Source: Spirochaetaceae bacterium
GTDB taxonomy: Bacteria; Spirochaetota; Spirochaetia; Spirochaetales_E; Spirochaetaceae_B
DNA: 12,157 nt
NCBI GenBank assembly: GCA_003249275.1
Contig: QKJO01000036.1
Location: 1 to 12,157 of the forward strand
Direction: 5' to 3'
The translations under genes and the position numbers were made by a program. The notes beneath the pieces were generated by a model. That model made no database searches, had not been told where the DNA came from, and saw nothing but the letters and a program-made list of their open reading frames with translations. Shown here in pieces: positions 8,097-9,562 of the stretch. Position 1 is the first letter of the stretch, and every line of letters starts with the position of its first letter.

Positions 8097-8886
8097 CTGG
8101 CCTCTCCGTACAAGGTATTCTCAGGGTTTCGATACTCAGGGCCTTACCCTGATCATCGATGTCTATGCATACACCCTGGAGTTCCAGCTGTTCCCAGGTA
8201 TCCAGGGATCTCTCGGGAATCTGGGTCAGGAATTTTTTGATTTCCACTTCCGGATTCAAACCGCCCACCGAATTCAGACTGCCCGTTCGTCCGGCATCGG
8301 TGATCATAGCCGATCCTTTGTTCATAAGGCATCCGTCCGCCGTCAGCGCTTTGGTTCCGGTTCCTACAAAGGCACTGACCTGACCGTCAGTGATATAGGA
8401 CAGGGTTTGTTTTTCGGCTGTTGTCGTGGCATGTAGATTGACTATGATGTGGGGGGTCAGTTCTCTGACACGGCCGATCAGTTCGGTAACATAGGAGAAG
8501 GGATTGGAAAGATGGACCCGCTGATATCCCGACTGTCCCAGAAGATTGATAACGCCTATCTTCTGATCGCCGACATTGTAAACACACCAGCCCCTTCCCG
8601 GACTTCCGGGCGGATAGTTTGCCGGTCTCAACAGAAAAGATGCCTTGGGTATGAATTCAACCATATCTTTTTTGTAAAAGACACACTCTCCTGAGGTCAG
8701 TACATCCACCCCGAGTTTTTTCAGATAGAGGGAGTGATTCTTCCCCATTCCGAAACCACCGGTGACACCGTTGCCGTTGGCAACAACAAAATCGATGCCC
8801 TTCTCTTCTTTCAGCTCGGGGAGAATCTTTTTGACAGTAAAAACTCCGGCTTTTCCTACAATTTCCCCGATAAACAGAACTTTCAT
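8074..8886 (-). CDS. YmdB-family metallophosphoesterase-like protein with altered active site
   Basis: YmdB proteins hydrolyse 2',3'-cyclic nucleotides using two metal ions. The 270-residue product aligns with the family along its length: MKVLFIGEIVGKAGVFTVKK, then LLRPANYPPGSPGRGW, NLHATTTAEKQ, SAFVGTGTKALTAD and MITDAGRTGSLNSVGG. As recalled, the typical motifs GDIVG, ANGEN, GNH, GTHTH each carry metal ligands. Here they read GEIVG (Glu8), ANGNG (Asn39), GEC (Glu67, Cys68) and GTGTK (Gly177, Lys179). Only His152 is plainly kept. The protein may be inactive, bind a different metal, or have a lineage-specific chemistry. I use the ATG at 8886 because the family starts at MKVLFIG. The frame extends 12 residues upstream to 8922, but those look unrelated. 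The ribosome site is weak (AGTGGT). The RseC-like gene overlaps its 3' end. Confidence 0.8.
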   Translation of the reverse strand: MKVLFIGEIVGKAGVFTVKKILPELKEEKGIDFVVANGNGVTGGFGMGKNHSLYLKKLGVDVLTSGECVFYKKDMVEFIPKASFLLRPANYPPGSPGRGWCVYNVGDQKIGVINLLGQSGYQRVHLSNPFSYVTELIGRVRELTPHIIVNLHATTTAEKQTLSYITDGQVSAFVGTGTKALTADGCLMNKGSAMITDAGRTGSLNSVGGLNPEVEIKKFLTQIPERSLDTWEQLELQGVCIDIDDQGKALSIETLRIPCTERPDDTADNR

Positions 8887-9001: not shown

Positions 9002-9013
9002 GGTGCCACGTCT

Positions 9014-9097
9014 GCCTGGATGGTGAAATTGGTAGACACGCTAGTTTCAGGGACTAGTGCTCGCAAGGGCGTGGAGGTTCGAGTCCTCTTCCAGGCA
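9014..9097 (+). tRNA. tRNA-Leu (anticodon CAG)
   Basis: The 84-base sequence folds as a type II tRNA. The acceptor stem GCCTGGA pairs with TCCAGGC (9090-9096) and A is the discriminator base. The D-arm has the leucine pattern TGGTGAAATTGGTAGACACGC. The anticodon stem CTAGT/ACTAG closes the loop TTCAGGG with anticodon CAG at 9048-9050, which reads CTG codons. The long variable arm (TGCTCGCAAGGGCG) and the T-arm with loop TTCGAGT complete it. CCA is not encoded. It has its own promoter and terminator as a single-gene unit. Its last 18 bases recur downstream at 9273-9290. Confidence 0.95.
9080..9097 (+). repeat. 18-bp direct repeat, copy 1 (tRNA-Leu 3' end)
   Basis: CGAGTCCTCTTCCAGGCA, from the T-loop to the discriminator base of the tRNA, is repeated perfectly at 9273-9290, 193 bases downstream. 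The identity ends exactly at base 9097, the end of the tRNA. Integrative elements that enter at tRNA 3' ends leave this kind of duplication. Confidence 0.85.
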
Positions 9098-9098
9098 T

Positions 9099-9141
9099 AA
9101 AAAAAGCTTCAATGACCGGATGGTCGTTGGAGCTTTTTTTT
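9099..9141 (+). terminator. Terminator of tRNA-Leu (works on both strands)
   Basis: AGCTTCAATGACC (9105-9117) pairs with GGTCGTTGGAGCT (9122-9134) around a GGAT loop, with two G-T wobbles, followed by eight T (9134-9141). Seven A residues (9099-9105) precede the stem, so the same hairpin has a T-run on the minus strand too and could stop transcription entering from the right. Confidence 0.9.
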
Positions 9142-9151
9142 ATTTCCGGTT

Positions 9152-9288
9152 CCTGGAGGAGGACTCGAACCTGAAGAGCGGCCTGAATACCTGGAAGGCA
9201 AACAGGCAGGATGCCTGTTTAGCTCTGAGGGAGGACTTGGAATGGACCGGGATGATCCCGGGACATGGAAAGCGAGTCCTCTTCCAGG
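9152..9288. repeat. Structured module A with tRNA-like arms, candidate ncRNA or small palindromic element
   Basis: The outer arms CCTGGAGGAGGACTCG (9152-9167) and CGAGTCCTCTTCCAGG (9273-9288) can pair over 16 bp with one G-T wobble. Inside lie a 4-bp stem GCCT/AGGC (9181-9184 with 9196-9199) with loop GAATACCTGGA, an 8-bp hairpin AAACAGGC/GCCTGTTT (9200-9207 with 9213-9220) with loop AGGAT, and CCGGGA/TCCCGG (9247-9252 with 9256-9261) with loop TGA. The core 9159-9279 is homologous to module B, with compensatory changes in the stems. I see no promoter just upstream on the plus strand, so transcription is unproven. Frames through it are not credible genes. Confidence 0.7.
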
Positions 9289-9290
9289 CA
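9273..9290 (+). repeat. 18-bp direct repeat, copy 2
   Basis: This exact copy of the tRNA-Leu 3' terminal 18 bases forms the right arm of module A. The flanking bases differ from those at copy 1 on both sides, so the identity is limited to the tRNA 3' end. Confidence 0.85.
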
Positions 9291-9317
9291 CCCTCAGGCC
9301 CTACCTCTGAATACTCA

Positions 9318-9340
9318 TGAGAATGCTTAATGCATTCTCA
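9318..9340. repeat. Perfect 9-bp hairpin between the two modules
   Basis: TGAGAATGC and GCATTCTCA form a perfect stem around the loop TTAAT. No T-run follows. It lies 27 bases after the second 18-bp repeat and 17 bases before the next terminator stem. If the region is transcribed rightward, it would be a separate stem-loop near the 3' end of that RNA. Confidence 0.6.
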
Positions 9341-9357
9341 GCCAACGGTAAAAGAAT

Positions 9358-9394
9358 GACCCGGTAGCCGATAAGGCTGCTGGGTCTTTTTTTT
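9358..9394 (+). terminator. Strong rho-independent terminator after module A
   Basis: GACCCGGTAGCC (9358-9369) pairs with GGCTGCTGGGTC (9375-9386) over 12 bp, including two G-T wobbles. The loop is GATAA and eight T follow (9387-9394). No protein gene ends here, and the tRNA already has its own terminator at 9099-9141. A transcript therefore seems to be expected from the module A region, or this is a backup stop. Confidence 0.88.
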
Positions 9395-9399
9395 CATTC

Positions 9400-9521
9400 G
9401 AGGACTCGAACTGCAGCGACGGCGCGAATACATGGAGCGCAAACCGGCAGGGAGGCCGGTTTAGGAGCAGAAGAGGGGTCGCAACGAGCCTGCAGGATGC
9501 AGGCGAATGAAGACCGAGTCC
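9400..9521. repeat. Structured module B, homologue of module A
   Basis: Module B runs from GAGGACTCG (9400-9408) to CGAGTCC (9515-9521), which pair over 7 bp. It contains GCGC/GCGC (9422-9425 with 9437-9440) with loop GAATACATGGA, AAACCGGC/GCCGGTTT (9441-9448 with 9455-9462) with loop AGGGAG, and GCCTGC/GCAGGC (9488-9493 with 9499-9504) with loop AGGAT. It is co-linear with module A, and the only net length difference is one base in a hairpin loop. CATTCG (9395-9400) and CGAATG (9503-9508) could also pair in a crossing, pseudoknot-like order. No terminator follows before the gpx promoter. Confidence 0.68.
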
Positions 9522-9562
9522 AATTCAGAAAGCATTATAATCCATATTTTCTGATCCTCTGG

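Follow-up and report, generated by a model that had tools for sequence, protein, structure and literature searches.

The stretch of DNA analysed here (the window, 12,157 nt of a Spirochaetaceae bacterium) carries a tRNA-Leu(CAG) gene (9013..9098, + strand; ARAGORN; Rfam tRNA at 9014-9097, 50.7 bits) that is followed on the same strand by two structured modules, both tailored to the end of this gene. Directly behind the tRNA lies a terminator-like hairpin (9099..9140, +; inverted repeat I4, arms 9099-9117 and 9122-9140) with a T run, and then an inverted copy of the tRNA 3' end (9152..9172, +; inverted repeat I1), 21 nt long and 95% complementary to 9075-9095, which provides the 5' strand of an outer stem, P1, together with an extension into the acceptor part. 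The last 18 nt of the tRNA, starting from T-loop position C56 (9080..9097, +; copy 1 of repeat family D3), are repeated with 100% identity at 9273..9290 (+; direct repeat), where they form the 3' strand of P1 and its tail. The inverted and the direct copies thus enclose module 1 and pair as P1. The folded core of module 1 extends over 9159..9281 (+; model R1, 128 bits, the copy being part of the R1 training set) and is composed of helices P1 (9159-9167/9273-9281), P5 (9175-9179/9222-9226), P2 (9181-9184/9196-9199, loop 9185-9195), P3 (9200-9207/9213-9220) and P4 (9236-9272). The second unit begins with a terminator-like hairpin and T run resembling those of the first (9355..9394, +; sequence, direct repeats D4 and D6) and continues with the core of module 2 (9400..9523, +; R1, 125.5 bits, again a training copy). 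Its P1 is formed by 9400-9408 with 9515-9523, the last two positions (AA) being unpaired, and the tRNA end is found as a shortened copy, CGAGTCC (9515..9521, +; sequence and repeat analysis), the tail beyond having been lost.

Both segments fold far better than their shuffled counterparts, with z values of -8.06 for 9152-9290 and -4.12 for 9395-9530 and none of 200 dinucleotide shuffles as good in either case. A first-pass annotation of the window had reported two cores aligning end to end; 90 of 130 alignment columns are indeed identical (75% identity over the first 52 nt), although the core ends it gave, 9279 and 9521, are placed by the model at 9281 and 9523. The pair swaps it had listed as keeping the helices are present, as is the 11-nt loop GAATAC(C/A)TGGA. 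The terminator ending at 9394, which it had read as a possible transcript end, opens the second unit and does not close a transcript limited to module 1. Beyond that description, the modules are parts of tandem units associated with tRNA genes, and their outer stem derives from the end of the neighbouring tRNA. A protein-coding reading of the modules was rejected, since the reading frame is not conserved among copies (by eye).

The comparison with Rfam 15 called for at the first pass gave no match reaching the gathering score at the window modules: at E<=1, the matches are the tRNA and two sub-threshold ones on the terminator hairpin before module 1 (9082-9146), mir-247 (28.4 bits, cut-off 70) and ctRNA_p42d (25.3 bits, cut-off 50), which look spurious. 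At 10 further loci, Rfam families at E<=0.1 were restricted to tRNA and a sub-threshold RsmZ match. A BLAST comparison of the window modules with plasmids returned a single 31-bp match (E 0.3). The YmdB-like protein encoded in the window has its closest database relatives at 80-89% identity over the full length, one of which (81%) is named Oceanispirochaeta; a single-sequence protein scan of genome contigs found no relative, and an alignment did.

Two copies alone cannot prove covariation. Copies from three relatives (L030, L031 and L032) and from a more distant genome (L043), all located behind tRNA-Leu(CAG), conform to one structure in which P1 encloses P5, itself containing hairpins P2 and P3, and the long hairpin P4. 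In an alignment of eight copies made with MAFFT, blind to structure, and from which the structure was then drawn, 92.6% of 284 cells pair and both sides change in 25 of 37 pairs; neither value was reached in 500 shuffles, and just 25-39% of cells pair when partners are slid by 1-3 columns as a control. In a larger alignment of 38 copies, which was made to the model and thus leans toward the structure, the corresponding values are 92.5% of 1393 cells and 31 of 37 pairs (0/500 shuffles), with a covariation score of 0.664 versus 0.194 after shuffling. Covariation, as measured by these counts and shuffles rather than by R-scape, is strong, and pairing is maintained across the family as the proposed selection on a folded structure had implied.

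Unpaired parts are also conserved. The P2 loop mostly reads GAATACNTGGA and is bordered by GA..GA in 35 of the 38 copies, GGA occurs in the P3 loop of 37 and in the P4 loop of 19, and GA/GA is found next to the P4 stem in 26. At five loci (L095, L099, L102 and the second copies of L043 and L091) the P2 loop has 10 nt in place of 11, with a near-self-complementary core such as ACCGGT, ATCGAT or GCCGGC. One module (L098:1501-1685) is longer by ca. 60 bases around P3, which may reflect a small insertion. Among 129 pooled copies, four from three genomes (L086, L102, L115 and L158) display a perfect P4 of 17-18 bp, while all others have at most 10 bp; this looks like a one-step quasipalindrome, or hairpin-templated, correction in DNA.

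Covariance model searches recovered many further copies in related genomes. Model R1 has matches in 5 of 10 genomes, with 25 in one of them, and detects at 62 bits a locus outside its training set (L058). Model R2 has matches in 22 of 26 genomes at the order level (E<=1e-3), in 15 of 39 genomes reached via named loci and in 28 of 247 genomes of a phylum-wide sample, including G401, G427 and G446. At the class level (E<=1e-5) it matches at least 141 of 394 genomes, which is probably a lower bound because filters were strict and few candidates were scored per genome. Two of the loci, L254 and L256, have a copy right after a tRNA-Leu; in a third, L255, the stronger match lies near the contig end and upstream of the sole tRNA seen, behind which there is only a weak match (23.7 bits). 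An exact-pattern scan for the loop motif hit 29 stretches on viral contigs, none with module context, and these were judged to be chance matches. Altogether, the modules form a widespread, structurally conserved spirochaete family with no above-cut-off Rfam match, and no description of it was found in the literature searched, a body to which most subscription journals do not belong. The covariance models allow this feature, absent from Rfam 15, to be annotated.

The association with tRNA genes was assessed on the pooled set, which comprises copies from 51 genomes or records, mostly the best-scoring matches of a larger number, and in which one misplaced copy (L105, its 5' end inside a second tRNA-Val gene) was kept. 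For 116 of the 129, a tRNA or tmRNA occurs at most 1.7 kb upstream on the same strand, the only one searched. Eighty-one of these are first units located 24-98 nt behind the gene (limit 120 nt), which is a tRNA of one of 12 types (Leu, Met, Pro, Gly, Arg, Val, Glu, Cys, Asp, Ala, Asn and Gln) or, in two cases, a tmRNA. The 35 copies found farther away correspond to 32 later array units and three that stand alone. The largest arrays contain six (L198), five (L196) and four modules (L199 and L206), and spacings between neighbours (n=36) range from 158 to 265 bp, bar one of 495 bp with tRNA genes between. About 1.1 kb past the array of L032, the 3' half of a module, ending like a tRNA, is located on the reverse strand (~8245-8280), behind an apparent small helix-turn-helix regulator gene.

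The 13 copies having no intact upstream tRNA were inspected by eye. Two follow a fragment running from the T-loop to the tRNA end at a contig end, two occur in an array preceded by a fragment that starts in the T-loop, two are at most 130 nt from a contig edge and one has no visible tRNA remnant. The remaining six are preceded by 3' half-tRNAs whose start lies close to the anticodon loop (seen at L104, L208, L177, L179, L170 and L174), an arrangement reminiscent of islands that inserted at this loop and pushed the former tRNA end aside along with the modules behind it. Resemblance to displaced island ends, and the fact that tRNA genes are the usual integration targets (Islander, PMC4383910), would fit modules that are remnants of the attachment sites of ordinary genomic islands or prophages. 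This origin is nonetheless highly improbable: the break in these six copies lies in the anticodon loop and not at a unit boundary, units are short, uniform and repeated up to six times in tandem, the inverted copy of the tRNA end is retained, and no integrase was found in the loci examined.

The rule observed in the window, whereby the outer stem is built from the neighbouring tRNA, applies across the family. The 3' strand of P1 is a direct repeat of the unit's own tRNA, from about T-loop position 57/58 to the 3' end, and the 5' strand is its reverse complement. The exact reverse complement of the RANYCC of the own tRNA is found within the first 14 nt of 67 of the 81 first units, versus a mean of 18.2 and a maximum of 32 when tRNAs are exchanged among loci (1000 permutations). 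Behind the module, the 17-nt tRNA end is perfectly repeated in 56 of 81 units, with a mean identity of 0.93 compared to 0.57 after permutation (maximum 0.62). The inverted copy even extends into the acceptor strand: in 75 units with at least 9/11 matches, 2.57 of the next 6 bases match, versus 1.72 when permuted (maximum 2.11, 2000 permutations). The direct repeat starts at C56, R57 or A58 in most first units and earlier, TTC included, in a subgroup that includes L058, L096 and L165 (both by eye). In the pair formed by G093 and G300, the internal parts are 90% alike and P1 and the tail each match the own tRNA, Met and Pro respectively. It is thus nearly certain that a unit consists of the tRNA 3' end, a short spacer that usually contains a terminator-like site, and a module of ca. 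120 nt with an outer stem copied from the tRNA.

The closest known design is that of the tandem repeats located behind tRNA-Tyr in the tyrT operon of Escherichia coli (RtT or rttR, RF00391); to our knowledge, their role is still unclear. The Rfam RtT model matches three E. coli units with 134-138 bits. Units start at A58 of tRNA-Tyr (AATCCTTCCCCCACCACCA), with a spacing of 178 in MG1655, and the module opens with GGGGAAGGAT, which is reverse-complementary to the tRNA stretch, and closes with the direct copy of that stretch. A set of 13 distinct modules was compiled from five records, of which three are from E. coli and one each is from Klebsiella and Salmonella, the search pattern having missed the modules of two further records. 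In this set, P1, P2, P3 and P4 pair in 98.6% of 360 cells; two-sided changes are limited to three pairs, a number that 62 of 500 shuffles attain, and no shuffle out of 500 attains the covariation score. E. coli strains differ by whole RtT units, with empty and filled alleles and a direct repeat from A58. No match was found between RtT and phages. Records labelled as plasmids were matched in 24 cases, and of four that were examined three adjoin chromosomal genes and one is devoid of annotated features.

RtT and spirochaete units share their overall design. Both occur in tandem behind a tRNA and start at about A58 with the tRNA's own end, both have an outer stem made of inverted and direct copies of that end, and both combine P2 and P4, each with tandem G·A (13/13 and 12/13 RtT modules, respectively; 35/38 and 26/38 in spirochaetes), around a plain P3. 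They differ in that RtT is known here solely behind enterobacterial tRNA-Tyr, whereas none of the 81 spirochaete first units follows a tRNA-Tyr, and in that no terminator precedes the RtT module in the sequence examined whereas spirochaete units usually have one. In computed folds, RtT has an extra hairpin instead of P5: this arrangement, with P1, P2, P3 and P4, is at most 0.4 kcal/mol from the computed minimum, and the fold that includes P5-like pairs exceeds this minimum by 4.8 kcal/mol (one unit). Furthermore, RtT is annotated as an sRNA and the spirochaete modules are known here from sequence. RF00391 has no match in the window or in any of 12 spirochaete genomes at E<=1 and matches one of 14 control genomes (E. 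coli), and model R2 gives 3-4 bits only on RtT units. Since neither covariance model recognises the other, the spirochaete modules are not members of RF00391; the design is common, and common descent goes beyond what mutually blind models support. Of the findings that would have refuted the first-pass suggestion, two are contradicted, as further copies do occur and covariation is strong; as to the third, a known element, RtT, has the same design, but its Rfam model is silent in the spirochaete genomes scanned. One design with a strict rule, the copying by the stem of its own tRNA from about T-loop 57/58, unites the window feature, dozens of spirochaete tRNA loci and RtT, and because this rule is shared, both DNA and RNA hypotheses become directly testable in E. 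coli.

The same annotation had proposed that selection acts on a folded RNA or on single-stranded DNA. That pairing is selected is borne out by the alignments; whether the product is an RNA is more doubtful. If it were, the module would be transcribed with the tRNA, directly or by read-through, fold, be trimmed via its tRNA-like 3' end and act as an sRNA, for instance by binding a protein through its conserved loops. Consistent with this, the module lies on the tRNA strand in 116 of 116 copies with a tRNA found (same strand only searched), a terminator-like site occurs at most 100 nt after the module for 78 of 128 copies compared to 532 of 4960 random windows, and the annotation of RtT describes an ncRNA 'processed from tyrT transcript'. 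The near-constant P2 loop and the GGA of P3 also point in this direction, CsrB/RsmZ sponge RNAs likewise having GGA in a hairpin loop; membership in that group is not indicated, since PrrB_RsmZ scores 27.9-28.8 bits (cut-off 44) and does so at one of 10 loci scanned. A precedent for read-through sRNAs is provided by RrA, RrB and RrF, located between two terminators of E. coli rRNA operons and shown to be transcribed (PMC8144298). These resemble the modules as structured sequences behind a stable-RNA gene and between terminators, but they are not made from the end of the upstream RNA.

Several features do not fit a functional RNA. In 69 of the 81 first units, a terminator-like site separates the module from its tRNA (12 have none by the rule used), and the T run and the module are a median of 12 nt apart, which is all that is left for a promoter. 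G·T pairs are rare, with 29 of 984 standard pairs in the inner helices versus 226 of 2531 in 112 tRNAs from the same loci, a comparison that cannot be extended to mismatches because ARAGORN displays standard pairs only. The GGA motif is present in just half of the P4 loops and in none of the 13 RtT P3 loops, and an RNA function does not alone account for the copying of the tRNA by the two P1 strands. Such a function therefore appears possible but somewhat doubtful, and the evidence leans slightly to a folded-DNA exchange site, ahead of a read-through RNA, as the selected form.

The overall mechanism that we favour, with a probability of about 40%, is exchange of folded DNA at the tRNA T-loop. 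Selection would act on the folded sense strand of DNA, and recombination at the start of the direct repeat, in the T-loop, would cause units to be gained, lost and multiplied. The folded module, with a P1 duplex homologous to the tRNA, may be the site recognised or copied during the exchange, comparable to the folded attC of integrons. Upon a change in the tRNA-derived 3' strand, hairpin-templated repair may rewrite the other strand to match, and the terminator carried by most units would ensure that the tRNA transcript is still ended after each gain. A Xer-type or other integrase acting in trans could be the enzyme involved, or ordinary replication and recombination could suffice. The usual start of the repeat (C56/R57/A58 in most first units) and the whole-unit differences between E. 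coli alleles support exchange at this boundary; the tailoring of P1 to its own tRNA, with the extension into the acceptor strand, also speaks for the mechanism, and the upstream terminators, the scarcity of G·T pairs and the four perfect P4 hairpins were counted for DNA over RNA. Against this mechanism, the units without a terminator and the annotation of the E. coli counterpart as an sRNA have to be considered, and unit gain and loss in E. coli could result from plain deletion and unequal crossing between direct repeats.

The latter processes, with slippage, could more generally make the modules passive and functionless tandem repeats at tRNA ends, with perfect stems arising from hairpin-templated correction alone. 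Array neighbours are often 97-100% identical, unit number varies among E. coli strains and perfect P4 hairpins do occur, as would be expected in such a case. The recurrence of the design in E. coli and the matches in at least 141 of 394 genomes of the class are not what neutral repeats would keep, and unpaired parts (the GA..GA of P2, the GGA of P3 and the GA/GA beside P4) are conserved family-wide, which makes this explanation distinctly unlikely.

For folded-DNA exchange, the extent to which modules move is also relevant. In the window and three genomes (G001-G003), the best-sampled sources with 40 copies, two orphan arrays were manually reassigned to Arg. For 14 of the 40, the most similar copy from another genome lies behind the same tRNA (mean 3.7, maximum 12 when labels are shuffled within genomes), and copies behind different tRNAs of a single genome (G001-G003) are at most 83% alike, while array neighbours reach 100%. 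The first two observations indicate that movement between tRNAs is slow at best. In the pooled set, after 6 of 129 copies of abnormal length were dropped, the nearest copy outside the locus lies behind another or an unassigned tRNA for 97 of 123, a figure that says little either way because most genomes gave one locus. No empty-site pair was found in spirochaetes. The spirochaete copies thus look mostly resident, locally amplified and rarely moving, which weighs against the favoured mechanism.

The search for a recombinase likewise speaks against it. Among the modules listed in 22 genomes, none adjoins a tyrosine recombinase match (PF00589), the nearest being a 117-aa fragment ca. 3.3 kb away in G002. 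In G004, which has two modules, only two PF00589 matches occur, 2.6 kb apart, a spacing seen in several other genomes; judging from this, the two are probably XerC and XerD. The 7.7 kb separating the copies of the G002 Arg arrays consists of ordinary-looking genes in which no recombinase was recognised by eye, and no cargo was seen within units.

Integron attC sites are folded imperfect palindromes of similar length, conserved in structure over sequence, that occur as tandem units with one strand end coming from the docking site and with core boxes RYYYAAC and GTTRRRY at their two ends. The spirochaete modules are also folded, tandem and more conserved in structure than in sequence. They are unlike attC in having a branched fold, no cassette genes seen and docking at the T-loops of many tRNAs, and neither core box was found in the end stretches of any of the 129 copies, a further point against the mechanism; among the modules listed in the 22 genomes, no adjoining integrase was seen. 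tRNA ends are favoured landing sites of mobile DNA. The modules might represent a miniature-integron-like class present across phyla, in which the T-loop of almost any tRNA or tmRNA would serve for docking, a single strand of DNA would be the substrate in its folded form, and the target would be set by a programmable outer stem that is complementary to the tRNA chosen, with RtT as its long-known but unrecognised representative; this generalisation is rather unlikely.

Finally, one genome (G022) has two module-bearing tRNA-Met genes separated by 16 kb, and inspection by eye of the ORFs of at least 120 aa between them revealed no recombinase. Five near-identical tandem genes (L195, 5579-13413), named by eye as AAA-ATPase/nuclease-like, are located between the two tRNA genes, with an adjoining transposase-like gene.
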